From assembly GCF_009676955.1 (NCBI RefSeq), contig NZ_CP045696.1, positions 806,001 to 870,000 of the forward strand: 64,000 bases of DNA. Reading direction: 5' to 3'. Below are positions 1,578 through 19,556 of this stretch, piece by piece. This DNA is from Sodaliphilus pleomorphus. GTDB taxonomy: Bacteria > Bacteroidota > Bacteroidia > Bacteroidales > Muribaculaceae. The position numbers and the translations under genes were made by a program. Each line of letters opens with the position of its first letter. Positions within the stretch are counted from its first letter, which is position 1. The notes beneath the pieces were generated by a model. That model was not told the DNA's origin, did not search any database, and was given only the letters and a program-made list of their open reading frames with translations.

Positions 1578-1608
1578 CAAAATTACTGCAAGTCGAGCGA
1601 AATGCAAA
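1578..1608 (-). promoter_or_regulatory. Promoter of fumarase (array copy nearest the gene)
   Basis: On the minus strand TTTG (1608-1605), a 19-nt spacer and TAATTTTG (1585-1578). This matches the Bacteroidetes primary-sigma consensus at the usual spacing. It predicts a leader of about 45 nt. Confidence 0.8.
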
Positions 1609-1974
1609 ATCAAGAACTTGTTTTTGATTTTGACATTCCCGAGACGAAGCGTAATTTATTTAAAATTACTGCAAGTCGAGCGAAATGCAAAATCGAGAAC
1701 TTGTTTTTGATTTTGGCATTCCCGAGACGCAGCGTAATTTATTTAAAATTACTGCAAGTCGAGTGAAATGCAAAATCAAGAACTTGTTTTTGATTTTGGC
1801 ATTCCCGAGACGCAGCGTAATTTATTCAAAATTACTGCAAGTCGAGCGAAATGCAAAATCGGGGGAACTTGTTTTTGATTTTGGCATTCCCGAGACGCAG
1901 CGTAATTTATCCAAAATTACTGCAAGTCGAGCGAAATGCAAAATCAAGAAAGCGTGTTTTTGACCTTTGAATTG
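1578..1974 (-). repeat. Tandem array of five promoter-bearing repeats upstream of fumarase
   Basis: Five copies of a unit start at 1578, 1661, 1744, 1827 and 1912 (periods 83, 83, 83, 85 bp); the last is incomplete and diverges after about 1945. Each unit has a nearly invariant core of about 34 bp, an AT-rich inverted repeat of about 26 bp, and a third block containing GAGACGCAGCG. Read on the minus strand, each core is TTTG, 19 nt, TAATTTT(G/A), which is the Bacteroidetes -33/-7 promoter. Copies 1, 4 and 5 end in G (perfect); copies 2 and 3 end in A. The same family occurs at 19281-19534. The short plus-strand ORFs across it only reflect the repeat. Confidence 0.9.
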
Positions 1975-2209
1975 CCAACGGGCCTTTCAACTTTATGCTG
2001 CAGGAAGATAACCGATTTGTATTGAACTACCAAAAACCAATCACGGCACAACACACCGAAAAGCCGCCACACAGTCAGGGTGCAGCGGCTCATTGCCGGA
2101 AAAAAACCTAAGGCAATCGTGAAAAAAAAAAATTAAGATTAGGACAGCAACGTGCCTCTTGCCTCTCGCCGCGGCCACGTGCCTTGCCAGGAAAGTGGCA
2201 GTAATCACA

Positions 2210-2575
2210 CTATTTTTCCCGAGCACCGTTTCGCTTGATGCGCAGGGTGAGCCGCACCTGCGCCTCGGGGTGGGCATCGGCGTCGAGCTTGCTGATGCGG
2301 CACTCCATCACTTGGGTCCAGCCCATCTTGAGCAACGCGGCCACGACCTCGTTGTGGCTGCACGGCAGGTAGCCCAGCATGTAGCGGCCGTCGTCGCCGG
2401 TCACGTCGGGGTCGATGTAGAACACGGCCACGGCATTGTCGTCGTGGGTATTGGAGCTGTCCCACTCCAGGTGGAGCAGGGTGCCCACTTTGAGCTTTTC
2501 CCACACCTCATCGGCATCATAATACTTGCGCCCTGCGAGGTGGCAATCGGTGTAATACAATTTTTTTGCTATCAT
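2210..2575 (-). CDS. HIRAN domain protein
   Basis: A 121-residue protein that is almost wholly a HIRAN domain. HIRAN modules bind single-stranded or 3' DNA ends in eukaryotic HLTF/Rad5 and are common as small stand-alone proteins in bacteria. Visible family marks are LAGRKYYDADEVW, the DDNAVAVFY strand near residue 46, GYLPCSHNEVVAALL near residue 69 and a basic C-terminus. It lies 82 bp downstream of the WYL regulator on the same strand but has its own -7 element (2606-2613), with a 16-bp inverted repeat (2621-2636) just upstream of it. The specific role is unknown; a DNA-damage or defence-related job is inference. Confidence 0.8.
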   Translation of the reverse strand: MIAKKLYYTDCHLAGRKYYDADEVWEKLKVGTLLHLEWDSSNTHDDNAVAVFYIDPDVTGDDGRYMLGYLPCSHNEVVAALLKMGWTQVMECRISKLDADAHPEAQVRLTLRIKRNGAREK

Positions 2576-2605
2576 CGTAGTAGTGTATTGTATCGTTTAC
2601 TGCTA

Positions 2606-2636
2606 CAAAGATAGAAGCTGCATGTTTCAAAACATG
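2606..2636 (-). promoter_or_regulatory. HIRAN gene promoter with palindromic operator candidate
   Basis: TATCTTTG on the minus strand (2613-2606) is a -7 element about 30 nt before the HIRAN start. A perfect inverted repeat CATGTTT-CA-AAACATG (2621-2636) lies in the -33 region, where no TTTG is found at the right spacing. This suggests a regulated promoter. Confidence 0.5.
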
Positions 2637-2657
2637 GTACAAGATTAAGAAAAAAAA

Positions 2658-3572
2658 CTATTTTTTTTGCTCGTAGCGCTCTATAGCCTCCCTGTGGGCC
2701 GCAACCACCTTGTCGATCACCCACTGTGGCGAGAGCACCTCGAGCCAGGAGCCTCGCGACACGACCTTGGCAATGAAGTCGGCCGTGGGTCGAAGCTGCA
2801 ATTTATAGTCGGCCCAACCGTCGCCATGGGCCACGAGCCGCTGCGAGTCGTGCAGGGGCAGGTCGCGCAGGTAGTAGGCCTCAAGACCGTGGGCGCGCAA
2901 GGTGACGGTAGTGATCTCAACCTCGTCGTCGACAAAAACGCCGTAATAGGCCGAGAAAAACTCTTCGGCGTCAAAGTCGGGGTCGAGCTTAAAGCGCACG
3001 TCGCTCACGAGCATGTCCTCGATGCGGTCGAGCGAGAGCATGGCATAGTAGCCATTTTTCTTGTAACGGGCCAGGATGTACCATCGCTGGCGGAAGTACT
3101 TGAGGCAGTAGGGCTCAACAACAAACTGGCGCGACTGCTTTGAGCCATACTTGCGGTAGTCGATCATCAGGCAGCAGCCTGCGCGCATGGCATGAATGGC
3201 AACGGCGAGCTTCTTGCCCTGCACCGGGATAGACTCGAGCAGGATGCGGCCGCGCAGCGACATGCCAGCGGCGATGACGTTGCTCACGGTGAGTGTCGAG
3301 AGCATCCAGTTCTGCACCGTGTGCTGGCCCAGCACCTCCTCGTTGGCAATGTAGTAGCGGTAGCCGTCGCGACGGTCGCAGTCGATGATGATGCCAAACA
3401 TGTCTTCGATAGCATCCTTGTGGCGGTTGAAGGTAGAGCGGGCAAAGGGGATGCCCTCGCTCATCTCGGTCTCGAGCCAGAGGGTGTTGATTTCCTGCAA
3501 GGAGATTTTGCGGTAGTGCTTGATGATGTTCACAAGCCAGATGTATTCTTTAAACAACTCGGGTTTCTTCAT
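2658..3572 (-). CDS. WYL domain transcriptional regulator
   Basis: A 304-residue regulator. An N-terminal region (about residues 1-110) resembles a winged-helix DNA-binding segment (RSTFNRHKDAIEDMFG, then DRRDGYRYYI). It is followed by a WYL domain around residues 120-215, with YRKYGSKQSRQFVVEPYCLKYFRQRWYI split over two strands, and a C-terminal WCX-like part. WYL domains bind nucleic acid or nucleotide ligands and often control defence or DNA-repair genes. The open frame continues upstream to 3827, but that extension is encoded by the 164-bp repeat and the end of the IS element; the ATG at 3572 is the natural start. It was probably divergent to the gene at 6100 before the IS inserted. Confidence 0.85.
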   Translation of the reverse strand: MKKPELFKEYIWLVNIIKHYRKISLQEINTLWLETEMSEGIPFARSTFNRHKDAIEDMFGIIIDCDRRDGYRYYIANEEVLGQHTVQNWMLSTLTVSNVIAAGMSLRGRILLESIPVQGKKLAVAIHAMRAGCCLMIDYRKYGSKQSRQFVVEPYCLKYFRQRWYILARYKKNGYYAMLSLDRIEDMLVSDVRFKLDPDFDAEEFFSAYYGVFVDDEVEITTVTLRAHGLEAYYLRDLPLHDSQRLVAHGDGWADYKLQLRPTADFIAKVVSRGSWLEVLSPQWVIDKVVAAHREAIERYEQKK

Positions 3573-3577
3573 CGCTG

Positions 3578-3741
3578 GTAAAGTTTGTGTTCTCACGCGA
3601 AGGTAGTGAAAATCTTTCACATGACAGTGGTTTGCCCGCGTCAACTTGCCCACGCGTGCGCCTGAGGTCCAGGTGTGGGGCGGGCTGCAAGGAAAAAAGG
3701 GTTGCAAGATTTTGCATGAAACGCCGCAATGCGCTATCTTT
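3578..3741. repeat. 164-bp direct repeat, left copy (target duplication of the IS)
   Basis: Matches 5886-6049 over 164 bp with two substitutions (near 3624 and 3631). It abuts the left end of the IS element and contains the upstream region of the WYL gene, including the palindrome GTGAAA-ATC-TTTCAC at 3606-3620. See the finding on IS1634-type long duplications. Confidence 0.9.
3606..3620. promoter_or_regulatory. Palindrome in WYL promoter region (operator candidate)
   Basis: GTGAAA-ATC-TTTCAC, a perfect 6-3-6 inverted repeat overlapping a weak minus-strand -7 element (TACCTTCG) about 30 nt upstream of the WYL start. A second copy at 5914-5928 arose with the target duplication. A role in autoregulation by the WYL protein is inference. 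Confidence 0.4.
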
Positions 3742-5885
3742 CCTAATTTGACAGTTTGTTGTATTAACGTATTGCTACACAATACTTTATATAGCAAAGT
3801 AATGTAGCTAATTTTTCGGTGTCGCAAAGATTAACCTTTGTTAACCTTTCGGTAGAACGCGTTCATCGCTGCTTTTGTGATTATCTGTTTGTTAACTTCC
3901 ACACCGGCAAGCTCTTGCAGTTGGTCGGTGAGGCTGGTGCGCTGGAACATGGGCACGTATCCCAGTCCCTGGATTTGTCCGAAGCGCAGGTTCTGGAGAG
4001 TGTCGATCAGCTGGTCGACGGTCAGGGGGTGCTCCTTGTAGGCCTCGGGGAACGAGTCGGCCAGCTGCTTTTGCAGGAGCTTGAGCAGCAGCAGTGCGAG
4101 GAAGCAGACGAGGAAGTGGGAGCGGATGCGGTCCTGCCTGGAGAGGTAGACGGGCCGGGCCTCGAGGTGGGTCTTGGTGGTGCGGAACAGGTGCTCTATC
4201 TCGTGATGGAAGGAGCGTGCCTTGAGCACGAGCGTGGCCTCGTCATCGAGCGAGGTGGCGTAGGCGTAGAAGCCGTCGAGCTTCTCCTCCTGTCCGAGGA
4301 TGTCGTCATTGATGACCATCTCGGTCTTGACGGCCGTCTGTCCGTCGTCGGTCTTGTGTATGGTCTCTATGTAGTTGAGCGGCGACTGCTGCGAGCGGCG
4401 CGGGTTGGCCTGCCCCCTGGCCACTATCTTCCTGGCCGCCGCGAGGCGCTCGGCGCGCTTGTGCCTGAGGAAGAGGGCGAAGTCGTGGCTGTAGGTGACG
4501 ATGACCCTCTCGGCCCTGGAGGAGCTTTGCCATTGCCTGATGCGTCGCCCCCGGGCGTCGACGGGCGTTGCGCCGGGGTTCTCCCTGCGGGCCTCGAGCC
4601 ACTGCGGGTTGAGGCATTTCACGGTTTTGTCGACAAGTATCTCCTTGTAGAATGTGGTCTGGCGCAGCAGGGAGCTGTCAGCCTGGCCGCCCTCGCGCAG
4701 CACGTCCAGGTTGTAGAGGCCGCCGTCGGAGTACTTCTCGCGCAGCAGCCTGGCCTTTTCCCCGTCGGCGCAGTAGCCCAGCCTCCAGCCCCTGGGGTCG
4801 ACGGCGGCCCGGCGGTCGGCGGCGGGCAGCGAGGGGATCGACTGGACGCAGATGTAGTCGCGGCCCTGGTCCATGTTGTAGCGCCGGTTGCCCTCCGAGG
4901 CCAGGCCGGCGTCGGTGGAGACGACGAACTCGGTCAGGCCGAACTTGCGCCTCAGCACATCCTCGAGCGGCTGGAGCGTGGCCTGCTCCGACTCGTTGCC
5001 CGGGAAGACCACGAAGGCCAGCGGGATGCCGTCCATGTCCATGAACATGCCCATCTGCACGATGGGGCTGGGCCGGTTCTCCTTCGACTTGCCGCGCTTG
5101 CGCAGCCCGGCCACGAGCTCGCCGGTCTCTATGTCCACCGTGTCCCTGTCGTTGTCCTCGATCTCGAAGTAGTAGTTGGTGCAGTCGTAGTAGATCACCC
5201 TGTCCCTGCGTTCCATGAACCTGGCCGAGCAGGCGTAGACGCCGGCCTGGATGTCGTCGATGTGGCCCGAGAGCAGGCTCAGGGCCCGGTACATGTCGGC
5301 CTCGCCGAACTTCGGAGGCCGCACCAGCCCCTGCGCCTTCCGCAGCGTCCTCTGCTTGGAGCAGGGGAAGAGCATACGGCCCGTGACCAGCGTCCTCAAT
5401 ATCCCGTCGAGGTCGAACTTCGCCTTGCTCGCCTTCTTGATCTCGGCGCACATGCGGGGCAGGCCGAGCCTGTTGTAAAGCGGCAGCAGCATCAGGTCGC
5501 CGCCCGCCCGCAGAGGCAGGTCGCCCTTGCCCACGGTCTGGCCCGGGTAGAAGTCAACCGAAATGCGCTCCCTGCCGGCCTTCTCCTCCTCGGTCATGCG
5601 GGCCGCCAGGTCCCTGACCCACTGGCGCGGGTCCTGGCAGCCGTACTTGCGCCTGATGTCCTCAAGCAGCCCCAGCCGCCTGACAGTCTTGGTGGTAGAC
5701 TTGCCGTCGATGCGCACCGACTTCTGGATGTAAGCCCACGTGCCCTTCTTCGTAGTGCCGAATGTCGCCTTCATATCTATAATCCTTTAATGTAATAACT
5801 ACTATTAGCTACAAATATACAAATAAAAAATGAACTGTGCAACAATTCATTAGAAAAAATTTTACGCTCTAACTGTCAAAGTCCC
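3742..5885 (-). mobile_element. IS1634-family insertion sequence, complete
   Basis: The element is bounded exactly by the two copies of the 164-bp repeat, giving 2144 bp. Imperfect terminal inverted repeats share TTTGACAGTT, five bases in from each end (3747-3756 and, inverted, 5871-5880). It holds one intact transposase gene covering most of its length. The duplicated flank fits the published behaviour of IS1634 from Mycoplasma mycoides, which makes long and variable-length direct repeats on insertion. Confidence 0.85.
3831..5774 (-). CDS. IS1634-family DDE transposase
   Basis: A full-length 647-residue transposase of the IS4/IS1634 superfamily (DDE_Tnp_1 fold). Candidate catalytic residues are Asp197 (YYDCTNYYFE), Asp288 (STDAGLAS) and Glu527 in the family motif IEHLFRTTKTHLEARPVY. 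No stop or frameshift is visible, so the element could be active. It starts at the ATG at 5774, about 110 bp inside the right end of the IS. It is more GC-rich than its AT-rich termini. Confidence 0.93.
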   Translation of the reverse strand: MKATFGTTKKGTWAYIQKSVRIDGKSTTKTVRRLGLLEDIRRKYGCQDPRQWVRDLAARMTEEEKAGRERISVDFYPGQTVGKGDLPLRAGGDLMLLPLYNRLGLPRMCAEIKKASKAKFDLDGILRTLVTGRMLFPCSKQRTLRKAQGLVRPPKFGEADMYRALSLLSGHIDDIQAGVYACSARFMERRDRVIYYDCTNYYFEIEDNDRDTVDIETGELVAGLRKRGKSKENRPSPIVQMGMFMDMDGIPLAFVVFPGNESEQATLQPLEDVLRRKFGLTEFVVSTDAGLASEGNRRYNMDQGRDYICVQSIPSLPAADRRAAVDPRGWRLGYCADGEKARLLREKYSDGGLYNLDVLREGGQADSSLLRQTTFYKEILVDKTVKCLNPQWLEARRENPGATPVDARGRRIRQWQSSSRAERVIVTYSHDFALFLRHKRAERLAAARKIVARGQANPRRSQQSPLNYIETIHKTDDGQTAVKTEMVINDDILGQEEKLDGFYAYATSLDDEATLVLKARSFHHEIEHLFRTTKTHLEARPVYLSRQDRIRSHFLVCFLALLLLKLLQKQLADSFPEAYKEHPLTVDQLIDTLQNLRFGQIQGLGYVPMFQRTSLTDQLQELAGVEVNKQIITKAAMNAFYRKVNKG

Positions 5886-6049
5886 GTAAAGTTTGTGTTC
5901 TCACGCGAAGGTAGTGAAAATCTTTCACATGGCAGTGGCTTGCCCGCGTCAACTTGCCCACGCGTGCGCCTGAGGTCCAGGTGTGGGGCGGGCTGCAAGG
6001 AAAAAAGGGTTGCAAGATTTTGCATGAAACGCCGCAATGCGCTATCTTT
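5886..6049. repeat. 164-bp direct repeat, right copy
   Basis: Second copy of the sequence at 3578-3741, two mismatches in 164 bp. It begins right after the right end of the IS and supplies the upstream region of the plus-strand gene at 6100, including the -33 element and seven of the eight bases of its -7 element. Confidence 0.9.
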
Positions 6050-6050
6050 G
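6019..6050 (+). promoter_or_regulatory. Promoter of the secreted-protein gene at 6100
   Basis: TTTG (6019-6022), 20 nt, TATCTTTG (6043-6050). All but the last G lies within the 164-bp repeat. In the left copy that G is replaced by C at the IS junction, so the left copy has an impaired version that would read into the IS. Confidence 0.75.
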
Positions 6051-6099
6051 CAACAATAACCAACCATTCTTTTACAAACAACTCCAAATTCCCAACAAA

Positions 6100-7785
6100 A
6101 TGAAACAAAAATTACTTCTCTCCTGCGTTCTCCTGCTCTCGGCAGGCACGATCGGCGCCCAGAAGCAATATGATGACGGGCAGGCCGAAGCCGCCCTTGC
6201 CACTCAGGCTCCGGCAGCCCAGGCCCGTGCACAGCAAGAGGGCAGCAGCACCTTTCAAGTGAGCTACAAGCGGCCTCGCGGCGTGTTTTACTGCCCCTAC
6301 TACACCAAGGACGATGCCACAGGCGTGTGGGCCTATTATGCACCCTGGTTGCACTCCACGCCCTACCAGAACGTGACCTTTGTCAACACCTCGACCGGTG
6401 CCACGGCATTTGACTGGCGAGTTACCGTGCTCAAGAATCTCGACGAGGAAACCATCACTTCGAGCGACACCGACTTCACCGTGCCCTACTCGCTCAGAAT
6501 AAGCGACAGCATACCCACGCTCACGGCCACGGGCGCGCCCGACACCACAGCCACCTACTTCATGGGCGGCTACAACAAGAGCTTGCAATACGTGCCCTCG
6601 ACGATGTGGACCTATCCCAACTGGAAATATGCCACCTCCGAGACCTACAAGGTGCGGCACATGTGGGAGTCGAGCAAGTACTATGCCTCCAAGACCGACC
6701 GCACGGGCACAGCCTCGGGCAGCAGCTTCTACTACACACTCGATACGCAATATGCAGCCAGCGGCAGCAGCAAGGCCTACACCTTCGGGCGCAACACAGC
6801 AGGCTACGACTACTCGGGCGTTGCCTTTGAGAAGCCAGCACACCCCTACCTCATCAACCACGTGGGTGTGAAATACCAAAAGCTCAAGTGGACACGCAAC
6901 GCCAACGCCCTGATAAAGGCCGAAATATATGAGCTGAAAAACATTCCCGCCTATAGCGACACCCAGGCCGTGACGCCCACACTCGTGCGCCGCATCGCCA
7001 CTGGAATGGTCACCATCGACAGTATCAACACTGCTGCCTCGGGCATGCTGTCGATACTCATGAAAGACGACGACGGCAACACGCCCGAAATCAACACCGA
7101 CATACTTGTCGTTGTATCGGGATACAACAACGACGCCATCAGCGACTTCACGCTCCTGTGCAGCAGCGACAAGGTCGACGAGGGCTATGGCGAGCTGGGC
7201 TACCTGGGCATCACGCAAAGCGACGGCACCGTGAACCTTGTGGGCGTGAACAACACCGTGGGCACCAACTTCTACACCGCACCGTCGATCTTCATCGAGA
7301 CCGAGCGGCCCTGGCTCACCTTCAGGTCGGGAATCGAGCCCGAGGGCCACGACTTCCTCACCACGGGCGAAGTCTACGACTTGGAGCTATTCTCGTCGAT
7401 GCCTTCCACGTCATGGACCATCACCACCAGCGCGGCAAGCAGCAGCCCCCAAGGCAAGGCAGCTGCAGCCAAGGTCGACCTGCCCTCGTGGCTCAGCATC
7501 ACCCTGCGCGAGGAGACCGGCAGCGAGCTGGGCTACTCGACCCATGCCGTGCTCGACGCCCAGGCCCTGCCTGCAGGCGAGCCCATGCGCGAGGCCACCT
7601 TGCGATTTGCCTTCCCAGGCGCCTATCTCGACTATCACATCACACAAGGCATGAGCACGGCCGTGACCACCATAAGCCGCGACAGCGAGCACGACGGCGC
7701 AGTCTACAACATGCTGGGCCAGAAAGTGAGCCCCAATGCCAAGGGCTTGCTCATCAAGAACGGTAAAAAGACCTATGTGAAATAG
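6100..7785 (+). CDS. Secreted protein with C-terminal tail, function unknown
   Basis: 561 residues starting at the ATG at 6100, chosen because a classical signal peptide (MKQKLLLSCVLLLSAGTIGA) follows and a promoter lies 50 nt upstream; the longer frame from 6037 overlaps the promoter. The body is rich in Thr, Ser and Tyr with no domain I recognise. The C-terminus (VYNMLGQKV ... NGKKTYVK) matches the short tail seen on other secreted proteins in this window (50253, 56154). In Bacteroidetes such tails resemble reduced type IX secretion-type sorting domains. It was probably the divergent partner of the WYL regulator before the IS inserted. An 11-bp stem terminator candidate follows. Confidence 0.75.
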   Translation: MKQKLLLSCVLLLSAGTIGAQKQYDDGQAEAALATQAPAAQARAQQEGSSTFQVSYKRPRGVFYCPYYTKDDATGVWAYYAPWLHSTPYQNVTFVNTSTGATAFDWRVTVLKNLDEETITSSDTDFTVPYSLRISDSIPTLTATGAPDTTATYFMGGYNKSLQYVPSTMWTYPNWKYATSETYKVRHMWESSKYYASKTDRTGTASGSSFYYTLDTQYAASGSSKAYTFGRNTAGYDYSGVAFEKPAHPYLINHVGVKYQKLKWTRNANALIKAEIYELKNIPAYSDTQAVTPTLVRRIATGMVTIDSINTAASGMLSILMKDDDGNTPEINTDILVVVSGYNNDAISDFTLLCSSDKVDEGYGELGYLGITQSDGTVNLVGVNNTVGTNFYTAPSIFIETERPWLTFRSGIEPEGHDFLTTGEVYDLELFSSMPSTSWTITTSAASSSPQGKAAAAKVDLPSWLSITLREETGSELGYSTHAVLDAQALPAGEPMREATLRFAFPGAYLDYHITQGMSTAVTTISRDSEHDGAVYNMLGQKVSPNAKGLLIKNGKKTYVK

Positions 7786-7830
7786 CGCGCCACAGCGGCA
7801 GCCGCCCTCGCAGGCAGCCAAAGCTACAAG

Positions 7831-7885
7831 AAGGCCGGCCGCGACAGCGGGTACAACACTACGCCCCCGCCTGCCGGCCGGCCTT
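7831..7885 (+). terminator. Stem-loop terminator candidate
   Basis: Perfect 11-bp stem AAGGCCGGCCG / CGGCCGGCCTT (7831-7841 and 7875-7885) with a loop of about 33 nt and a short T run. It separates the secreted-protein gene from the flavin reductase gene. Confidence 0.5.
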
Positions 7886-7945
7886 TGCATGCCTCAACAG
7901 GGAAAAACACACGCTCGCTTGCCGCCATTATTCGGCAATAATTGC

Positions 7946-7953
7946 TACCTTTG
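7946..7953 (+). promoter_or_regulatory. -7 element of flavin reductase gene
   Basis: TACCTTTG. No clear TTTG lies 19-21 nt upstream. It rules out the ATG-like start at 7942 and supports a start at 7999 (or 7972). Confidence 0.55.
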
Positions 7954-7998
7954 TCCAACCAAGGCAGCTACATGCCATCTTTTGGATACAACACGACT

Positions 7999-8565
7999 AT
8001 GAAACAAAACTGGAGACCGGGCACCATGATCTATCCGCTGCCAGCCCTGCTGGTCACGTGCGGTGCCGTGCCCGAGGAATACAACGTGCTCACTGCAGCC
8101 TGGACGGGGACGATATGCTCCGACCCGGCCATGTGCTACGTGTCGGTGCGCCCCGAGCGCTACAGCCACGACATCATCGAGCGCAACATGGCCTTCACCC
8201 TCAATCTCACCACCCAGGCGCTGGCGCGGGCCACCGACTGGTGCGGGGTGCGCAGCGGGCGCGACTACAACAAGTTTGAGGAAATGGGCCTCACCCCTGT
8301 CAAGGGAGTGAAGGTGGCAGCCCCCTACATCGAGGAGTCGCCCATGAGCATCGAGTGCAGTGTGCGCGACATTGTGCGCCTGGGCAGCCACGACATGTTT
8401 ATAGCCGATGTGATGGGCGTGCTGGCCGACGAGCGCTACATCGACCCGGCCACGGGCAAGTTTGACCTCGAGCAGGCCGGGCTCATCGCCTATGTGCACG
8501 GGCAGTACTACACGCTGGGCAAGGCCCTGGGCCACTTTGGCTGGAGCGTGAAGAAGAAGAAGTGA
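7999..8565 (+). CDS. Flavin reductase family protein (FMN-binding split barrel)
   Basis: 188 residues from the ATG at 7999. It belongs to the flavin reductase-like domain family that binds FMN and passes electrons from NAD(P)H, in the cytoplasm. Family features seen are the N-terminal PLPALLVTCG strand, NVLTAAWTGTICSDPAMCYVSV (in two parts), the HDIIERN segment and the C-terminal GLIAYVHGQYYTLGKALGHFGWS. The substrate cannot be read from sequence. A start at 7972 would add nine residues; 7999 aligns better with the family start. It stands alone between a terminator-like hairpin and glyA. Confidence 0.85.
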   Translation: MKQNWRPGTMIYPLPALLVTCGAVPEEYNVLTAAWTGTICSDPAMCYVSVRPERYSHDIIERNMAFTLNLTTQALARATDWCGVRSGRDYNKFEEMGLTPVKGVKVAAPYIEESPMSIECSVRDIVRLGSHDMFIADVMGVLADERYIDPATGKFDLEQAGLIAYVHGQYYTLGKALGHFGWSVKKKK

Positions 8566-8621
8566 GCGCCGAGAAGAAAAATAAAACGCGGCAAACACAA
8601 GGCTTTGTCAAAAATTTTGAC

Positions 8622-8770
8622 TAAGTTTGCACACGTCAAGGCGACTGCTTGGGCCGTCTCAGGCACAAGGGCCTGACGACAGTACACCCCGGGGGGCGCT
8701 GCACAGCATCTTTTATTTCAAGAAGACACCCTTATCTAAATAAAACAACCTTTTTAACAACATTTCAGCT
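8622..8770 (+). promoter_or_regulatory. glyA -7 element and structured leader
   Basis: TAAGTTTG (8622-8629) would start a leader of about 137 nt. The leader can form a hairpin GTCTCAGGC / GCCTGACGAC with one bulged base (about 8660-8684) and a small CCCC/GGGG hairpin just after it. I do not recognise a known riboswitch class. Regulation by glycine or folate status is speculation. Confidence 0.4.
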
Positions 8771-10051
8771 ATGTTTAAAGATACTGAGATTTTCAACATC
8801 ATCGAGAAAGAACACAATCGCCAGCTGCACGGCATGGAGCTGATTGCAAGTGAAAACTTTGTGAGCGACGAGGTGATGCGCGCCATGGGCAGTTGCCTCA
8901 CCAACAAGTATGCCGAGGGTTATCCTGGCCACCGCTACTATGGCGGCTGCCAGTGTGTGGACGAGAGCGAGAACATCGCCCGCGACCGCGTGAAGAAGCT
9001 CTTCGACGCCGAGTATGCCAACGTGCAGCCTCACAGCGGCGCACAGGCCAACATGGCCGTGTTTATGGCCTGCTTGAAGCCTGGCGACAAGTTCATGGGT
9101 CTGAACCTTGCCATGGGAGGCCATCTCTCGCACGGAAGCCCAGTCAACTTCTCGGGCATCATGTTTAACGACTGCGAGTATGACGTCGACAAGGAGACCG
9201 GGCTGGTCGACTACGACATGATGGAAGAAGTGGCTCTGCGCGAGAAGCCCAAGTTGATCATAGGCGGCGCCAGCGCCTACAGCCGCGAGTGGGACTATGA
9301 GCGCATGCGCAAGATTGCCGACGAGGTGGGCGCCATCTTCATGGTCGACATGGCACACCCGGCTGGCCTCATTGCAGCCGGCCTGCTCAAGAACCCATTG
9401 AAATATGCCCACATTGTGACCTCGACCACCCACAAGACCCTGCGCGGCCCGCGCGGCGGCATCATCTTGATGGGCAAGGACTTCGACAACCCGTGGGGCA
9501 AGACCACCAAGAAGGGCGTGATACGCAAGATGTCGTCGCTCCTCGACTCGGCAGTGTTCCCCGGCGTGCAAGGCGGCCCGCTCGAGCATGTGATCGCAGC
9601 CAAGGCAGTGGCCTTCGGCGAGGCGCTGCAGCCCGAATTCAAGCAATATGCCCTGCAGGTGAAGAAGAATGCCGCCGTCATGGCACAGGCATTTGTCGAC
9701 AAGGGTTACAAGATATGCACCGGCGGCACCGAGAACCACTGCATGCTCATCGACCTGCGCACCAAGTTTCCCGAGCTCACCGGCAAGGTGGCCGAGAACG
9801 CGCTCGTGGCTGCCGACATCACGGTGAACAAGAACATGGTGCCCTATGACGACCGCAGCGCCTTCCAGACCAGCGGTCTGCGTGTGGGCACGCCTGCCAT
9901 CACCACCCGCGGCGCCAAAGAGGAGCTGATGCCCGTGATTGTAGATCTCATCGACACTGTGCTGCACGATCCCGAAAACGAGACAGTGATCAAGACCGTG
10001 CGCGAGAAGGTGAACAGCATCATGAAGGACTACCCCATCTTTGCATGGTAA
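8771..10051 (+). CDS. glyA: Serine hydroxymethyltransferase
   Basis: 426 residues, usual length. Converts serine and tetrahydrofolate to glycine and 5,10-methylene-THF with pyridoxal phosphate, in the cytoplasm. The PLP lysine is Lys222 in [14 protein letters not shown]. Other family motifs are ELIASENF near residue 23, [15 protein letters not shown] near 45, [15 protein letters not shown] near 84 and [10 protein letters not shown] near 191. It is preceded by a structured leader and followed by a strong bidirectional terminator, so it is monocistronic. Confidence 0.98.
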
Positions 10052-10108
10052 TCCACATCCACCGCCGCTGCTGCTACAGCAACGCGTTTTTAAGTTTATA
10101 AAACATAG

Positions 10109-10150: not shown

Positions 10151-10171
10151 TCTTATCTGTGCACCGGCGGC

Positions 10172-10936: not shown

Positions 10937-10956
10937 CTTGATGTAGCGTTTCTGTT

Positions 10957-11172: not shown

Positions 11173-11226
11173 TTCAAAAAAAACAACAAAAAAAAATCTT
11201 TTCGCTGCGAGGTGGCCGGGGCGGCA

Positions 11227-12867: not shown

Positions 12868-12887
12868 ACGTGAGGATATTTATCGTT

Positions 12888-13919
12888 TCATTGTTGACTG
12901 GTTACCAAGCTGGCAAAGCGCTTGTTGCTCCACACCACATAGTTGCCCTGGGCATCGGCACTGATGGTCATCACGCCCAGGTGGCGATTGCCCTCCATGA
13001 GCTGGCGAGTTCGGGCAGTGCCCATCACCATGCAGGCTGTGGCCCAGGCATCGGCCGTCATGCAGTCGGGGGCCACGATGGTGACGCTGAGCAGGTCGCT
13101 CTCGCTGCTGTAGCCTGTGATGGGATTCACGATGTGCGACACCTTCTTGCCGGCCACTTCCTTGTACTTGCGGTAGTTGCCGCTTGTGGCCACACCGCCG
13201 CCGTCGAGAGCAATGACCAGTGCCGGCTGGTGCTCGACACGTGCATTGTCCTCGATGGGCATGTCGATCGACACGTGCCACTTCTCGCCCTGGGCATTGT
13301 GCCCCTTGCAGGCGATCTCGCCGCCTATCTCGACCATGTAGCTGGCAGCGCCGCCACGCTCAAGGGCACGCCCCACCTCGTCGCAGGCCAGGCCCTTGGC
13401 GATAGAGCTGAAGTCAAACTGGATGCGAGGGTCGCTCTTGACCAGCCTGCCAGCCTCGATGCGCGTCTTGCCTATGCCCACGATGTGGAGCAGGCTGTCG
13501 ATCATCTTCTTGTCGGGGAGCTGCCCCCTCTTGTAGCCGAAGCCCCAGGCATTGACCAGGGGCATCACCGTGGGGTCGTAGGCGCCACCGGTGGCCTTGT
13601 TCACCGCCAGTGCAGTGCGGTACATGCGCATCAGGCAGCTGTCGAGCCGGTCGGTCTTGTTCTGGTTGATGCGCGACACCAGCGAGCGGGGATTGAACAC
13701 CGAGGCGCTGTTGTCGATGAGGTCAAACACGCGCTGTATCGAGTCGCTCATGTTGTGCGAGGCCTCGTAGGTCACATGGTAGTCGGTAGTCCACACCACG
13801 CCCTGGTCGCTCATGTAGTGCTTCACTTGCGGGCGATAGAAAACTAACACGGCAACTCCCACCACCACAGCTGCTATCACAGCCCAGTAGCGGCGCGAAG
13901 AGATGATCTTGTCGTTCAT
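12888..13919 (-). CDS. apbE: FAD:protein FMN transferase
   Basis: 343 residues. ApbE attaches FMN to threonine of periplasmic and membrane proteins such as the RnfG/NqrC subunits. An N-terminal membrane anchor (residues 10-28) is followed by the ApbE domain: TGGAYDPTVMPLVNAWGFG near 105, DFSSIAKGLACDEVG near 170, EIGGEIACKG near 198 and the Mg-binding TADAWATACMVMG near 288. First gene of the operon with the C69 peptidase. TAACTTTG at 13978-13971 is a likely -7 element, about 52 nt upstream. Confidence 0.95.
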   Translation of the reverse strand: MNDKIISSRRYWAVIAAVVVGVAVLVFYRPQVKHYMSDQGVVWTTDYHVTYEASHNMSDSIQRVFDLIDNSASVFNPRSLVSRINQNKTDRLDSCLMRMYRTALAVNKATGGAYDPTVMPLVNAWGFGYKRGQLPDKKMIDSLLHIVGIGKTRIEAGRLVKSDPRIQFDFSSIAKGLACDEVGRALERGGAASYMVEIGGEIACKGHNAQGEKWHVSIDMPIEDNARVEHQPALVIALDGGGVATSGNYRKYKEVAGKKVSHIVNPITGYSSESDLLSVTIVAPDCMTADAWATACMVMGTARTRQLMEGNRHLGVMTISADAQGNYVVWSNKRFASLVTSQQ

Positions 13920-14042
13920 GTCGATTTTAAATAGAGATAAAACAAAATAGAGAGTGACTATTTCACGTCACAAAGTTAACGTTTTTTATGGCTTATGAAG
14001 TCATTTTATTCAATTTATAAGCACTTATTTCGAGTTTTTTCT

Positions 14043-14050
14043 TACTTTTG
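14043..14050 (+). promoter_or_regulatory. -7 element of the barrel gene at 14073
   Basis: TACTTTTG, 22 nt before the ATG. The upstream region is AT-rich without an exact TTTG at the expected distance. Confidence 0.55.
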
Positions 14051-14072
14051 TGGCATTTAAAGGAACAAAACT

Positions 14073-14690
14073 ATGATTAAAAAGACATTAAGCTACATGG
14101 TAGTGCTGGCCGTCGCTCTACTGGCCACAGCCACGCCCGCTGCGGGCCAGTTGCGCTTTGGCGTGAAAGCCGGCATGGGCATCAACGACATGAAATTTAA
14201 CAAGGATGTGCTCGACAACAAGAACTATCTGGGCTGGACTGCCGGCGTGACCGCCGAGCTGCAGGTGCCTGTGATAGGCCTTGCCTTTGACGGCGCTGTG
14301 CAATACACGCACCGCACCAGCGAGCTCTACACCGACGACCCCAACGGCACCAGCTACAAGCGCAACTACATCGAGGTGCCCATTCATGCCAAGTACAAGC
14401 TGGGCTTGCCAGTGCTCGAGAAGGTGGCAGTGCCTTTCCTGTTTGTGGGCCCCAACTTTGCCTTCCTCACCAATTCCAACGACAAGGGCAACTCGTTTAA
14501 AGACAAAGACATGGCGCTCTCGCTCGACCTGGGTGCCGGTGTGGAGCTGGTGCACAAGCTGCAAGTATCGGTCACCTACAGCGCCGGCATGACCAAGGCC
14601 TTTGAATATGTGGGCGTCGACCGCGACAAGTATCCCAAGGTGACAGGCAAGGACAAGTGCTGGACCATTGCAGCTGCCTATTTCTTTTAG
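14073..14690 (+). CDS. Outer-membrane beta-barrel protein (PorT-like)
   Basis: 205 residues. A signal peptide (about residues 1-25, ending TPAAGQ) precedes LRFGVKAGMGINDMKF, the typical first strands of the Bacteroidetes PorT/outer-membrane beta-barrel family. The rest alternates amphipathic strands (FLFVGPNFAFL near 126) and ends with an aromatic (AAYFF), the usual C-terminal barrel signature. Ligand and role are unknown. The next gene (14809) is a diverged paralogue, with about 118 bp and its own promoter between them. Confidence 0.85.
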   Translation: MIKKTLSYMVVLAVALLATATPAAGQLRFGVKAGMGINDMKFNKDVLDNKNYLGWTAGVTAELQVPVIGLAFDGAVQYTHRTSELYTDDPNGTSYKRNYIEVPIHAKYKLGLPVLEKVAVPFLFVGPNFAFLTNSNDKGNSFKDKDMALSLDLGAGVELVHKLQVSVTYSAGMTKAFEYVGVDRDKYPKVTGKDKCWTIAAAYFF

Positions 14691-14756
14691 TTTCACCAGT
14701 GCTCACGCGCGCCACGCACAAGGGAGCGTTACTGGAAGTTAAAGACAAAGTCAATG

Positions 14757-14788
14757 CTTGCGCGTATTGATATTTTGTTTTAGCTTTG
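14757..14788 (+). promoter_or_regulatory. Promoter of the second barrel gene
   Basis: CTTG (14757-14760), 20 nt, TAGCTTTG (14781-14788), 20 nt before the ATG at 14809. Confidence 0.65.
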
Positions 14789-14808
14789 CAACAAAATCAC
14801 AGAAAAAA

Positions 14809-15441
14809 ATGACTAAAACAGGCATCGCACTCCTTCTTTCCACAATCCTGGCATTGGGCTCAAGCCTGGCCGCCAGCGCCGAGACGCGCTGGGGTCCCAC
14901 CATAGGCATCAACTACAATGAGATCCACTTCAAGCAAGGCGACATCTTCAAGAGCGACCGCATGATAGGCGGCCAGGCCGGCTTGACGGGCGAGCTCATG
15001 GTGCCCGGCATAGGCTTCGGCGTCGATGGCTCGGTGCTCTACTCGCTGCGCCAGGGCAAGCTGCACCTGGGCGACAAAAAGGTGTGGGCAAGCCAGGGTG
15101 CCGGCACCGAGACGTGCTCGCTGCACTACATCGACGTGCCGCTTAACCTCAAGTTTAAGTATCACAACTTGAATGGCGTGGAAAACACCATCATGCCCAT
15201 GGTGTTTGTGGGACCCACGATTTCCTTCTTGGCAGGGCACAACAAGTGTGCCGACCAGCTGAGCTACCAGAAGGTGAGCGCAAGCCTGCACTTCGGGCTG
15301 GGTTGCGAGCTCTTCAACAAGGTGCAGGTCAAGGCCGGCTACCAGTTCAGCATAGGCAGCTCACTCAAGACCAAGCTGCTCGACGAGAACGATGCCAAGA
15401 ATCGCTCGTGGTTTTGCAATGTCACCTACTTTTTGAAGTAA
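14809..15441 (+). CDS. Outer-membrane beta-barrel protein, paralogue of the previous gene
   Basis: 210 residues from the ATG at 14809, preferred over the upstream frame start because it gives a clean signal peptide (cleavage near ASAE) and lies 20 nt after a promoter. The barrel pattern follows the neighbour: TRWGPTIGINYNEIHF, GELMVPGIGFGVDGSVLYSL, MVFVGPTISFLAG, and a C-terminal strand FCNVTYFLK. Two adjacent paralogues suggest a tandem duplication that has since diverged widely. Function unknown. Confidence 0.85.
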   Translation: MTKTGIALLLSTILALGSSLAASAETRWGPTIGINYNEIHFKQGDIFKSDRMIGGQAGLTGELMVPGIGFGVDGSVLYSLRQGKLHLGDKKVWASQGAGTETCSLHYIDVPLNLKFKYHNLNGVENTIMPMVFVGPTISFLAGHNKCADQLSYQKVSASLHFGLGCELFNKVQVKAGYQFSIGSSLKTKLLDENDAKNRSWFCNVTYFLK

Positions 15442-15631
15442 GGCTGTGCACTTTTGCACAAAAACAGAAAATAAAATTGCTTGCAAATTATAAAAAAAAG
15501 ACTAAATTTGCAGCAATAACACTCTAACTGAAGTTGATTCAATGTGTGGGGTCGTGCGTCGCGATGACGTGTAGCCCCATTTTTTTGTACCCCATGCTTC
15601 GCTGTAGTGATTATCAAAAAGAAAAAAAACC

Positions 15632-15639
15632 TAACTTTG
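15632..15639 (+). promoter_or_regulatory. -7 element eight bases from the acetyltransferase start
   Basis: TAACTTTG ends 8 nt before the ATG at 15648, which predicts a leader of only a few bases. No exact TTTG is present 19-21 nt upstream. Confidence 0.5.
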
Positions 15640-15647
15640 CCTATAAT

Positions 15648-16223
15648 ATGAAGACACAACTTGAAATTGAAATCGAGAAAATGATGTCGGGGCAGCTCTA
15701 CGACGCCAACTACAACGACCAGCTGCTGCCCTTGCTCGAGGCCACGAGCGAGAAGTGCTGGGAATACAACCACCTGCTGCGTCCCAGCCAGGTTGCCGAG
15801 CGCGAGGCGTTGCTGCGCGGCTTGCTGGGCAAGACGGGCAAGCGCTTCAAAATCAACCAGCCGTTTTACTGCGACTACGGGTTCAACATCGAGATAGGCG
15901 AGGATTTCTTTGCCAACTTCAATCTTGTGATTCTCGACGAGGCCAAGGTGAAAATAGGCGACCACGTGTATATTGCGCCCAACTGCGGCCTCTACACAGC
16001 AGGGCACCCGCTCGACGTGGATCGGCGCAATGCCGGAATGGAATACTCACTGCCCATCACCGTGGGCAACAACGTGTGGATGGGAGCCGGCGTGCACGTG
16101 ATGCCGGGTGTGACGATAGGCGACAACACAGTGATAGGAGCAGGCAGTATCGTGGTGCACGACATCCCGGCTGGCGTGCTTGCCGTGGGCAATCCCTGCC
16201 GGCCAATGCGCAAGATTCATTAA
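15648..16223 (+). CDS. Sugar O-acetyltransferase (maltose/galactoside acetyltransferase type)
   Basis: 191 residues. Uses acetyl-CoA to acetylate free sugars or nucleoside-type acceptors. The N-terminal Mac domain (EKMMSGQLYDAN, residues 10-21) precedes a left-handed beta-helix of hexapeptide repeats, with NFNLVILDEAKVKIGDHVYIAP split over two coils, the catalytic His in YTAGHPLD near 123, and ITVGNNVWMGAGVHVMPGV in the last coils. The start at 15648 fits the family; upstream frame is not homologous. The -7 element is unusually close. Confidence 0.9.
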   Translation: MKTQLEIEIEKMMSGQLYDANYNDQLLPLLEATSEKCWEYNHLLRPSQVAEREALLRGLLGKTGKRFKINQPFYCDYGFNIEIGEDFFANFNLVILDEAKVKIGDHVYIAPNCGLYTAGHPLDVDRRNAGMEYSLPITVGNNVWMGAGVHVMPGVTIGDNTVIGAGSIVVHDIPAGVLAVGNPCRPMRKIH

Positions 16224-16253
16224 GGAGACATTCAAAAAAGGGGGAGGCCATCG

Positions 16254-17036
16254 TCAGTGCTGCGGCTCATAGTCGCAATGCTCCTGGTTGAAGACAACAT
16301 GCGGGCTTGAGAACACACGGTCCATGGCGCTGCTGTGCACCATCGCGCGTGTGGGCCCTGCCAGCACCTGGCGGTCGCGGGTGATGAGCCACAGCTGGTC
16401 GGTGAGCAACAGGCTGCGCGAGATGTCGTGGGTAGAGAGCACAACGGCCTTGTGCTGCTCGTGGGCCAGCGAGGCGAGCAACTGCATCGTCTCGATGCGG
16501 CTGGCGGCATCGAGAAAGGCTGTGGGCTCGTCGAGCACGATGATGGGCGTGTGCTGTGCCAGCGCCCGGGCTATCATGGCCTTCTGTCGCTCGCCGTCGC
16601 TCAACTGGGCCACATAGCTCTGCGCCTTGGCCGTGATGCCAACACTCGCTATGGCCTGTGCCACAATCGCGCGGTCGTCGTCGTCGAGGCGGCCCAAGAA
16701 GCCCGTGTGAGGCTGGCGGCCCAAGGCCACCAGCTCGGTCACCGTCAAGGCTCCAGCCTGAATGCGGTCGGTAGTCACCAGGCCTATGAGACGGCTGCGC
16801 TCACGCAGCGAGATGCCGCCCAGGTTACGCCCGTCCACCTCAATCCACCCCTCAAGCGGCCGCGAGGCACAGGTGAGCGCACGCAGCAGTGTCGACTTGC
16901 CGGCGCCGTTCTGGCCCAACAAGGCCACCAGCTGTCCGCGCTCGATGCTCAAGTTGAGCCCCGAGAGCAGCGTGGTGGTGTGCTTGCCATGCACATAGCC
17001 CACTGCAAGATTGTGGGTAGCATACAATGCTGTCAT
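16254..17036 (-). CDS. ABC transporter ATP-binding protein (FecE/BtuD type)
   Basis: 260 residues from the ATG at 17036 (a start at 17060 would add eight). Drives an importer of metal chelates such as siderophores, haem or cobalamin. Visible motifs are Walker A GQNGAGKST near 41-49, signature QLSDGERQK near 138, Walker B IIVLDEPTA near 157 and the switch His in STHD near 193. Third gene of a minus-strand operon, 75 bp after the permease gene. Substrate is not determined by the sequence. Confidence 0.9.
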   Translation of the reverse strand: MTALYATHNLAVGYVHGKHTTTLLSGLNLSIERGQLVALLGQNGAGKSTLLRALTCASRPLEGWIEVDGRNLGGISLRERSRLIGLVTTDRIQAGALTVTELVALGRQPHTGFLGRLDDDDRAIVAQAIASVGITAKAQSYVAQLSDGERQKAMIARALAQHTPIIVLDEPTAFLDAASRIETMQLLASLAHEQHKAVVLSTHDISRSLLLTDQLWLITRDRQVLAGPTRAMVHSSAMDRVFSSPHVVFNQEHCDYEPQH

Positions 17037-17111
17037 ATTTCTATTTTTTTCTTCTCTCAATTGCTTTAATGACTATGGTTGCCCACCCAGGAGGCCTCCT
17101 GCCCCATCCGT

Positions 17112-18155
17112 TCAGTTGAAATATTGTATCTTGCGGCGATTGAGCAGGATGTAGATGATGACCGGCACGCCTATGATGGGCGTGATGGCATTGAGCGGTA
17201 TCACATGCCCGAAGCCAGTGCTGAGCAAGGCACACAGCAAGGCCGTGTCGGCCCCGGCCAGGATAGTCACGGGCAGGAGCCTGCTGTGATTGCTGGTCGA
17301 GAGCATGAGACGTGCCAGGTGCGGCACCACCAGCCCCAGGAACCCGATGGGACCGCAAAATGCAGTGACCACGGCCGTGAGCACACCCGTGATGAGCAGC
17401 AGCTCGATGCGCACGCGGTGTGTGTTCACGCCCAAGTTTTGGGCATAACGCGCCCCCAGCAGCATGGCGTTGAGCGGCTTCACCATGAGCATCGAGGCGG
17501 CCAGGCCCGCAAGCACTACCGAGGCATATACAGGCAGCTGGGAGAGCGCGACGCCCGAGAAGTTGCCAAAGCCCCAGGTCACATAGCTGTGCACGCCTTG
17601 CTCGCTGGCCAGCGAGTTGAGCAGCGAGATCACACTCGAGGCCAGGTAGCTCACCAGAATGCCAATGATGAGCAGCATCGTGTCGCTGTGCACCACAGCC
17701 GAGAAGGCAACCAGCAAGGCCAGCACTGCACCAGCCCCGAGAAGGGCGCCCACAAGCGTTGCCACATAGCCTGCGGCCGTCTCCCCCAGCAGGCCGCCCA
17801 TGGTGCCGCCCATGGCAAGCATCACGATGGCCACGCCCAGCCCGGCACCCGTAGAGACGCCCAGAATCGACGGTCCGGCCAGGGGGTTGTTGAAGGTAGT
17901 CTGCAACAGCAGCCCCGATACCGAGAGCGCCGCTCCCGCCAGCGCCGCCGTGGCAATGGTGGGCACACGCGACTGCACGACAATCACATCCCAGGCCTCG
18001 TTGCCGCTGCCATGCCCCGAGAGAATCGAGAGCACAGCGCCGGCATCGATGTCGACACTGCCCACCAGCAGGCAGGCAGCTGCCAGAGCCAGCAGCAATA
18101 GCGCAAGGCCGCACACGGCCAGGGTGTATCGATGGGAAGAATGTAGTTTGTGCAT
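17112..18155 (-). CDS. FecCD/BtuC family ABC permease
   Basis: 347 residues with about ten hydrophobic segments. It forms the membrane channel of the same importer. Family segments are NPLAGPSILGVSTGAGLG near 131, GFGNFSGVALSQLPVYA near 193, GARYAQNLGVN near 232 and GPIGFLGLVVPHLARL near 267, the last being the coupling region. Its ATG overlaps the stop of the binding-protein gene (ATGA at 18155), so the two are translationally coupled. Confidence 0.93.
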   Translation of the reverse strand: MHKLHSSHRYTLAVCGLALLLLALAAACLLVGSVDIDAGAVLSILSGHGSGNEAWDVIVVQSRVPTIATAALAGAALSVSGLLLQTTFNNPLAGPSILGVSTGAGLGVAIVMLAMGGTMGGLLGETAAGYVATLVGALLGAGAVLALLVAFSAVVHSDTMLLIIGILVSYLASSVISLLNSLASEQGVHSYVTWGFGNFSGVALSQLPVYASVVLAGLAASMLMVKPLNAMLLGARYAQNLGVNTHRVRIELLLITGVLTAVVTAFCGPIGFLGLVVPHLARLMLSTSNHSRLLPVTILAGADTALLCALLSTGFGHVIPLNAITPIIGVPVIIYILLNRRKIQYFN

Positions 18156-19270
18156 CAGCGGTCGAGATGATGGTAATACTCATGCCTGTAGCCCGGGAAG
18201 AGCTCGGGGTGCAACACAGCGGCCAGCTCGTGGAGCAACACGTCGGGATGGAACGGAATGCGCACAAAGAAGTGGCTCTCGCCCGTGTCGCACACCCACA
18301 CTCGACGTGTCTTGAAAGCCTTGAAATTCTTGTTCAGGTCATATTGCGCCTGCAACTGGGCCAGCGTGTTGATGCCCGTCCACTTGATAAACCAGAAGTC
18401 GGCATTCTGAGCCTTGGCAAGCACCTGGTCGAAATCGAGCGAGAGCGACCCGGTGCTCTTGTCGTCGCTCCAGGGATAGGAGCCGCCCGCATCCTTGATG
18501 ACACGGGCCATGTAGCTGTTGCCGCCTGGCACACTCCACACGCCGCTTATCACCATCTCGGTAATCACACTGGGGTGAGAAGTGGCTTTTTGGGTGCGCG
18601 CCACAATGGCATCGTAGCGCCCCCTCACCGCTCGGTAGAGGCTGTCGCCGCGCTCCTCGCTGCCCAGCAAGGCACCGTAGAAGCGTGCCCACTCGGCACG
18701 GCCCAGGGGAGAATACTCAAGATAGTCGGCACACTCAATCAAGGGAATGCCCAGTTTCTCGACCTGGCCATAGGTGGCGTCCTGATAGGGCGACAGCAGT
18801 ATAGCGTCGGGCTTCATGGCAATCACGCGCTCGATGCTGGGAGCACTGCTGCTGCCGCAGTCGGCAATCGCGCCGTGCTTCACACGGGCCAGCACCTCGG
18901 GGTCGGTGAAGTAATTGGCATCGCACACCCCCTTCACAGCCTCAAAGCCGCCCAGCTCGCGCATTACGCTCGTGTGTACCTCGCTATAGACGAGGGCTCG
19001 CCTCACAGGGGTGCGCACCACGGTGCCTGCAGGCAGGTCGCGGGGCACTACCGAGTCGCGAGGCACAAGCAGATAGGTGTGCAGCAACTTGCCGTTGTGC
19101 CACGGGTCCTTGATTTCAACCTTGAGATAGCCTCTCTTTTGCGTCATGACCAGCAGGCTGGCCTGGCGGTCGTTGTTGCGGGCCGCGTTGCTGCCGCGAT
19201 TGCACGACACAAGCATCATTGCCAGCAGCAAGGCGACAGCCACATGCTGTAAAATTGCAGAGTGTTTCAT
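18155..19270 (-). CDS. ABC transporter substrate-binding lipoprotein (FecB/BtuF type)
   Basis: 371 residues. The signal peptide with lipobox MMLVSC (Cys23) shows a lipoprotein. A TroA-type two-lobed fold follows: RRALVYSEVHTSVMRELGG near 89, GSSSAPSIERVIAMKPDAILLS split near 137-160, a long linker helix and WSDDKSTGSLSLDFDQVLAKA near 275. It probably delivers an iron or cobalamin chelate to the permease. No cobalamin riboswitch is present upstream; instead the ATG lies 10 nt from the -7 element of the nearest promoter repeat (19281-19311). Confidence 0.9.
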   Translation of the reverse strand: MKHSAILQHVAVALLLAMMLVSCNRGSNAARNNDRQASLLVMTQKRGYLKVEIKDPWHNGKLLHTYLLVPRDSVVPRDLPAGTVVRTPVRRALVYSEVHTSVMRELGGFEAVKGVCDANYFTDPEVLARVKHGAIADCGSSSAPSIERVIAMKPDAILLSPYQDATYGQVEKLGIPLIECADYLEYSPLGRAEWARFYGALLGSEERGDSLYRAVRGRYDAIVARTQKATSHPSVITEMVISGVWSVPGGNSYMARVIKDAGGSYPWSDDKSTGSLSLDFDQVLAKAQNADFWFIKWTGINTLAQLQAQYDLNKNFKAFKTRRVWVCDTGESHFFVRIPFHPDVLLHELAAVLHPELFPGYRHEYYHHLDR

Positions 19271-19280
19271 ATTCTACTTG

Positions 19281-19311
19281 CAAAATTACTGCAAGTCGAG
19301 CAAAATGCAAA
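19281..19311 (-). promoter_or_regulatory. Promoter of the ABC importer operon (array copy nearest the gene)
   Basis: Minus strand TTTG (19311-19308), 19 nt, TAATTTTG (19288-19281), ending 10 nt from the start codon. Identical layout to the fumarase promoter. It predicts a nearly leaderless mRNA unless an upstream copy is used. Confidence 0.75.
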
Positions 19312-19534
19312 ATCGAGGAAGCTCGCCTTTTGATCTTTACATTGCCAAGACGCCGCGTGATTTATCCAAAATTACTGCAAGTCGAGCGCAATGCAAAATC
19401 GGGGAAGCTCGCCTTTTGATCTTTACATTGCCGAGACGCCGCGTGATTTATCCAAAATTACTGCAAGTCGAGCGCAATGCAAAATCAAAAGCTCGCCTTT
19501 TGATCTTTACATTGCCAAGACGCCGCGTGATTGA
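19281..19534 (-). repeat. Tandem array of three promoter-bearing repeats upstream of the ABC importer
   Basis: Units start at 19281, 19367 and 19453 (period 86 bp). Each holds the core seen at 1578-1974 (one or two base changes), an imperfect inverted repeat around AAGCTCGCCTTTTGATC and a third block with AGACGCCGCGTGATT. All three carry TTTG-19-TAATTTTG on the minus strand, aimed at the importer genes. The arms and the third block differ from the fumarase array, so this is a diverged member of the same family rather than a recent copy. Confidence 0.9.
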
Positions 19535-19556
19535 TTTAATAAGGAAACAGAAACGG

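Follow-up and report, generated by a model that had tools for sequence, protein, structure and literature searches.

Two arrays of tandem repeats in a 64,000-nucleotide stretch of the Sodaliphilus pleomorphus genome (Bacteroidales; Muribaculaceae; NZ_CP045696.1, positions 806,001 to 870,000; hereafter the window) raise the question of what kind of element would repeat a promoter-like sequence in front of unrelated genes, here a fumarase gene and a gene for a periplasmic binding protein. A first-pass annotation of the window had proposed a mobile or expandable promoter repeat. We consider it probable that the repeated unit is a non-autonomous mobile palindrome of the Bacteroidales, about 65–92 bp long, which carries a promoter and targets -7 boxes; promoters, it seems, travel here as small mobile elements.

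Arms and arrays of the unit

Tandem Repeats Finder reports the arrays at 1578–1963 (array 1; period 83, 4.6 copies, 93% matches) and 19281–19532 (array 2; period 86, 3.0 copies, 94% matches), the places given in the first-pass annotation. Array 1 consists of four full units of 83–85 bp and a fifth that has diverged by about position 1974, and array 2 of three units of about 86 bp each. What that annotation missed is the palindromic character of every unit. Each is an imperfect palindrome, with a length range of 65–92 bp, whose gene-side arm reads TTTG-19/20-TAnnTTTG and whose non-promoter arm (GATAAnnTAGGC...) is its imperfect complement. In the promoter direction the unit runs roughly GATAAnnTAGGCkGCGNCTCGGCAATG-(A-rich, loop, T-rich)-CATTGCGCTCGN'CTTGCACTAn'n'TTTG.

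The two arms covary. In a first set, the best 150 of 219 matches from the family (149 of them distinct), standard pairs fill 95.2% of the cells of 16 pairs, and 14 of these pairs have changed on both sides, in compensatory fashion. Covariation was scored at 0.483; shuffles that ignore relatedness gave 0.180 (0 of 500 reach the observed value), and a slide control that retains it gave at most 0.075. A second set, 133 matches at 80 loci in named Bacteroidales records, is 91.9% paired with 15 of 16 pairs double-changed; both alignments were fitted to a model that contains the palindrome structure and are hence biased towards pairing. Few positions vary as much as the two free bases of the -7 box, and pairing is nonetheless kept there. 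Taken as a possible sign of which strand folds, G-U and A-C combinations stand at 82:29 and 98:43, an asymmetry that would favour the strand antisense to the gene, with much of it coming from columns fixed by the promoter. Units 1 and 2 of array 1 fold better than shuffled sequences on both strands (z -2.9 to -4.7).

The -33 box of Bacteroidetes promoters is TTTG, about 19–21 nt from TAnnTTTG, and the unit has just this sequence of a primary promoter, upstream of a gene. The available text of one source gives a -7 consensus of TANNTTTGY plus a -33 site for Bacteroidetes (PMC12632263). The exact pattern TTTG-19-TAnnTTTG occurs ten times in the window against 0.10 expected from 100 shuffles, and six of the ten lie inside the arrays. 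All units are on the minus strand. The gene-proximal unit 1 of array 1 (1578–1660) has its promoter-like arm, TTTG-19-TAATTTTG, at 1578–1608; unit 4 (1827–1911) has an intact pattern at 1827–1857 and a G-rich loop, and the distal unit 5 (1912–1974) an intact promoter arm at 1912–1942 and a diverged upstream arm. Array 2 carries the pattern at 19281–19311 in its gene-proximal unit (19281–19366), at 19367–19397 in unit 2 (19367–19452) and at 19453–19483 in its distal unit (19453–19535). The earlier statement that each unit carries a complete promoter is therefore right for three of the five units of array 1 and all three of array 2, but not for units 2 (1661–1743) and 3 (1744–1826) of array 1, which end in TAATTTTA, an altered -7 box.

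Two further features of the arrays vary. In several S. pleomorphus arrays (window 1827–1911; L057, L062, L064) the unit at or near the distal end has a G-rich loop (GGGGG or similar), and the lone unit of L063 has one too. This agrees with the distal unit as the oldest of an array, but in L061 the loop is found in units 1 and 2. At some internal junctions (L065, with 92-bp units; L081, L082, L109) the sequence is TAnnGTTG, and a short additional spacer or hairpin separates it from the unit that follows, a recurrent second junction type.

Filled and empty sites

Orthologs of the fumarase gene and of a MiaB-type gene were compared by reading 30 loci each by eye, taken from 40 and 41 genomes with a match. 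The S. pleomorphus fumarase gene has five units, whereas G146 has two, G512 one and the end of another, and G109 one; the remaining 26 of the 30 loci are without a unit by eye, and most of these have a plain -7 box at a similar distance from the ATG. A five-unit array precedes the MiaB-type gene in S. pleomorphus alone among the 30 loci. At panB in another genus, arrays are present in G082 and G098 and absent from G138, G064, G112, G125, G149 and G023, with G044 unreadable. Unit copy number at the same gene differs between close species.

Two pairs of filled and empty sites are clean. In the first, the empty site of G082 reads AACTTTTTTATATCTTTGCCATTAGG and the filled site of G098 and G044 reads AACTTTTTTCATACCTTTT, the unit and TATCTTTGCCCATTAGG, the two boxes being 80 bp apart. 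In the second, the filled site is that of G082 (75 bp), and the five other genomes searched (G098, G044, G112, G138, G064) are empty; since five are empty and one is filled, we read this pair as an insertion rather than a loss. Its native box ends in TTTA, as does the gene-side box after insertion. In both pairs a single unit, which itself carries a box, is placed exactly at the -7 box with a box-like sequence of 7–8 bp at either end. Locus p6 was not counted as a third empty site, as G098 holds a decayed copy there, and loci p7 and p9 were left out because their relatives are unalignable or operon-internal.

A box-like sequence directly precedes the distal-most unit in 46 of 123 cases, compared with 0–4 at seven control offsets; 34 of these boxes resemble the remains of another unit and 12 do not. 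Among 11 distinct junctions of the latter kind, some of which may be decayed units, six have the same free bases in the distal and the proximal box (permutation P 0.0014), and this agreement would fit insertion guided by matching boxes.

Around some elements (L290/L304 and L329/L334) the sequences of different species are 99–100% identical, compared with about 79–84% at neighbouring or other compared loci, suggesting that these stretches were probably transferred recently as whole regions.

Orientation, box decay and spread

The S. pleomorphus genome (3.34 Mb, one contig) holds 30 sites that match the 33-base core with up to three mismatches and none that match the reversed control, far above chance. 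They form ten arrays of one to five units. With gene starts taken from our own codon-usage caller, the promoter end faces a gene start 5–81 bp away in all ten arrays, five of which lie between co-directional genes, five between divergent genes and none between convergent genes; weak single copies at 1752420, 2216883 and 319358 likewise face a gene. This tally omits two very short matches (2530240, 285751) and further degenerate core sites. Of 117 gene-proximal ends, 113 have the next gene in sense and three have it in antisense, while no gene was called at one (median distance 39 bp); one of the antisense cases is a palindrome shadow and another a match with E 0.47, and both were kept in the count. 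The second set, from whose 133 matches two shadows were dropped and in which one flank is present twice, has 85 of 87 proximal ends in sense. Pooled, 196 of 202 proximal ends face a gene in the same sense, after removal of two shared ends (which leaves 83 of 85 in the second set).

The state of the -7 box depends on its position. TAnnTTTG is intact in 108 of 117 gene-proximal units but in 26 of 85 internal ones (Fisher P 7e-21, with units not all independent; 190 aligned and 30 S. pleomorphus units gave 204 distinct, of which 202 were kept), and TTTG stands 19 or 20 nt from the -7 box in 108 of the 117. In the second set the box is intact in 8 of 44 internal units and in 83 of 87 proximal ones, the latter figure being biased as the selection pattern contained an intact box. 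It seems that selection preserves whichever box lies closest to the gene and lets the inner ones go, and the gene-side arm is presumably a working promoter from which the gene would be transcribed.

The first-pass proposal of a mobile promoter repeat gains from the non-random orientation, from the empty sites and from the differences in copy number among orthologs. Random orientation, which it had named as contrary evidence, is not what the ten S. pleomorphus arrays or the two wider sets display. Its further suggestion that every unit is an active promoter and that copy number sets expression finds no support, the internal boxes being mostly lost.

A model search of the family, in which up to 23 candidates were scored per genome, finds a match at E 0.01 in 58 of 198 genomes and 16 of 30 genera. 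Across the order, a scan allowing two mismatches finds 3–36 core matches in 16 of 295 genomes, and the control never exceeds two per genome. At least one match is present in 30 of the 295 genomes and at least one control match in 34; single matches therefore carry no weight, and only the 16 genomes with three or more are used. The highest number, 36, is in G466, and G274 and G377 of the same genus have none. At least 120 matches were found in named records, of which the 80 listed carry Bacteroidales names or 'uncultured bacterium'; among the matches listed are Muribaculaceae, Bacteroidaceae, Prevotella, Alistipes and Hoylesella buccalis ATCC 35310, and the model confirms the unit in 77 of the 80 loci. 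Units of different arrays are more alike within a genome than between genomes of the same genus (0.830 vs 0.775; 0 of 1000 permutations, 94 arrays), as expected if the units were copied in bursts. Carriage by phages or plasmids was set aside as an explanation: a 166-base query found nothing among 50,697 phage and 72,556 plasmid records. Viral contigs contain three exact matches.

The genes downstream of the window's arrays are those that the first-pass annotation named, a fumarase and an ABC importer. The fumarase gene (PF05681/PF05683; minus strand) occupies 3–1529 and runs past the window start (genome 805874–807529). Array 2 is 11 bp from the start of the periplasmic binding protein gene (18155–19270, minus strand; Peripla_BP_2, PF01497), which is followed in the same direction by a FecCD-family permease gene (17112–18155, minus strand). 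There is a match to a DDE transposase domain (PF01609, E 2.5e-6) in a 647-residue open reading frame at 3831–5774 (minus strand), which lies upstream of the fumarase start by 2.3 kb.

Possible routes of movement and related elements

The comparisons show directly that a unit can be placed on a gene's -7 box, leaving the gene with a promoter box in the old place, that its arms covary and that its orientation to the gene is nearly uniform; promoter activity, recognition of the hairpin and the moving enzyme are inferred. As the right end is again a -7 box, more units could enter at the same spot and build head-to-tail arrays, in which the youngest unit would adjoin the gene; alternatively, slippage may enlarge the arrays. 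Natural selection would preserve the box nearest the gene while inner boxes decay, and the palindrome would be retained for its recognition as a hairpin by an enzyme that processes DNA strands. A more specific version, which we offer tentatively as a possibility, is that the promoter is both cargo and address: an enzyme would insert hairpin units in single-stranded form, and the -7 box that receives a unit would be selected because its TAnnTTT pairs with the GATAAnnTA of the unit's upstream arm. Each insertion would then rebuild the target, keep the gene alive and admit the next unit. Were this so, a genomic parasite would be replacing and multiplying the promoters of core genes.

Several observations weigh against a mobile unit of this kind. 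There are only two clean empty sites, and the first pair compares three genomes, is compatible with gain or loss, and has boxes that differ at two of eight positions (TACCTTTT, TATCTTTG), short of a classical target-site duplication. The first unit of array 2 folds weakly as a single strand (z -0.71 and +0.32). No moving enzyme was found in a search for a parent element that covered the Y1 family: 34 of the 58 carriers have a Y1 transposase, as do 82 of the 140 non-carriers (odds ratio 1.0), and the sole Y1 gene found in S. pleomorphus sits in its own, different repeat. We therefore reject Y1, or the REP-associated tyrosine transposases (RAYT; REP, repetitive extragenic palindrome), as the general mover. 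That gene (L067, G000:C1:2213500-2220500, at 3430–5278) lies inside a dense array of GC-rich palindromic repeats of the GCCCGTTTCACGGGC type, perhaps its own REP family, and a weak core 0.6 kb away was set aside, the Y1 gene having its own repeat array.

Promoters could also be copied without a transposition enzyme, by recombination, gene conversion or template switching through the short -7 and -33 boxes and the hairpin, with slippage making the arrays. The box-like direct repeats of 7–8 bp that flank an inserted unit, the distal and proximal free bases that agree in 6 of 11 junctions, the homogenised units within a genome and the lack of association with Y1 would all suit such a process. We nevertheless think it unlikely, as a whole two-armed unit enters sites with about 8 bp in common at many unrelated genes, and tens of copies are present in one genome and none in a relative of the same genus.

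The remaining explanations take the unit as a signal rather than a traveller. In one, a transcription factor or alternative sigma factor would use the conserved spacer as its operator, with a response tuned by the tandem units; GCTCG-n-CTTGCAC does recur across families of the order, in named records that had been selected by that pattern. This is very improbable in our estimation: the ten downstream genes of S. pleomorphus are unrelated (HisS-like, DHODB-type Fe-S, LeuA-like, thioesterase, fumarase, binding protein, radical SAM, glycosyltransferase, Dus and DUF2461), the unit is missing by eye at 26 of 30 fumarase and 29 of 30 MiaB-type loci, and its bases covary with their partners, something not required of an operator on duplex DNA. 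Because the ten genes are unrelated and most of the fumarase orthologs read have no unit, the conserved spacer, for which the first-pass annotation had suggested recognition by a protein or RNA, is better explained by shared descent and a structurally constrained palindrome. We give hardly any credence to a hairpin in a 5′ leader RNA (an attenuator, RNase site or stabiliser) arising from upstream units or read-through. The folding of array 1 units 1 and 2 speaks for it, but the first unit of array 2 folds no better than shuffles, the palindrome is kept at single-unit loci, and the proximal unit stops at its own -7 box, so that a transcript from that box holds none of the unit. The window has no Rfam match at the gathering score, and a permissive search of 1500–2050 gave just sub-threshold miRNA and Staphylococcus families; a known RNA family was accordingly rejected as the identity of the unit.

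A mobile palindrome can be compared with several described elements, as they appear in the accessible portions of the papers cited. In Neisseria, Correia repeat enclosed elements (CREE, or NEMIS) are short non-autonomous inverted repeats whose end can supply a sigma-70 promoter to the next gene and whose insertions differ from strain to strain (PMC2649163). The Bacteroidales unit is likewise a short inverted repeat, probably non-autonomous, with a promoter-like sequence at its end for the next gene; CREE, however, often insert at TA (sometimes CA) and complete a promoter in some places only, whereas our unit has the full pattern built in and a near-uniform orientation. Both insertions that were mapped fall on a -7 box, with some 7–8 bp in common, and it is by insertion site, not by comparison of ends, that the two are set apart. 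REP and REPIN sequences, associated with RAYT (TnpA-REP), are small imperfect palindromes in species-specific families, intergenic and sometimes tandem (PMC3116915, PMC3733652, PMC6006769). Our unit is also small, imperfectly palindromic, intergenic and at times tandem, but differs in having one orientation to the gene, a built-in promoter pattern and no Y1 association, and the GTAG/CGTC tag of REP is absent from its hairpin foot, which in the aligned units is CAAAnnTA and TAnnTTATC. This contrast leaves aside the Bacteroidetes subclass 2.6, which is flanked by atypical structures (PMC6006769).

BrickBuilt, a miniature inverted-repeat transposable element (MITE) of Porphyromonas gingivalis whose promoter activity was measured in E. 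coli, has been discussed as a putative mobile promoter, and is likewise intergenic, of the Bacteroidales and internally tandem (PMC4596501). It holds 23-nt repeats, and the available part of its description has no 83-bp palindromic unit or -7-box target (PMC4596501). In IS200/IS605 elements (IS608), a guide beside the hairpin base-interacts with a tetranucleotide and so recognises the cleavage and target site (PMC6006769); the complementarity of our unit's left arm to the -7 box of its landing site may be likened to this, as an analogy only and with no enzyme link here. Our unit is nearest to Correia elements in effect, to REP in shape and to BrickBuilt in host group. It fits a MITE in the broad sense, with terminal inverted repeats in that the whole unit is imperfectly palindromic, and departs from REP/RAYT and Correia elements in the features tested. 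No earlier description of this repeat was recognised in a literature search in which most subscription papers were outside reach.

To our knowledge, most mobile promoters described so far are side effects of an insertion. In the gut bacteria considered here, an entire family of elements seems to be made as a promoter and set down on promoters. Such a family would explain how promoters are swapped between unrelated genes, would provide a natural experiment on promoter copy number, and would point to an activity, so far undiscovered, that moves DNA and recognises the -7 box.

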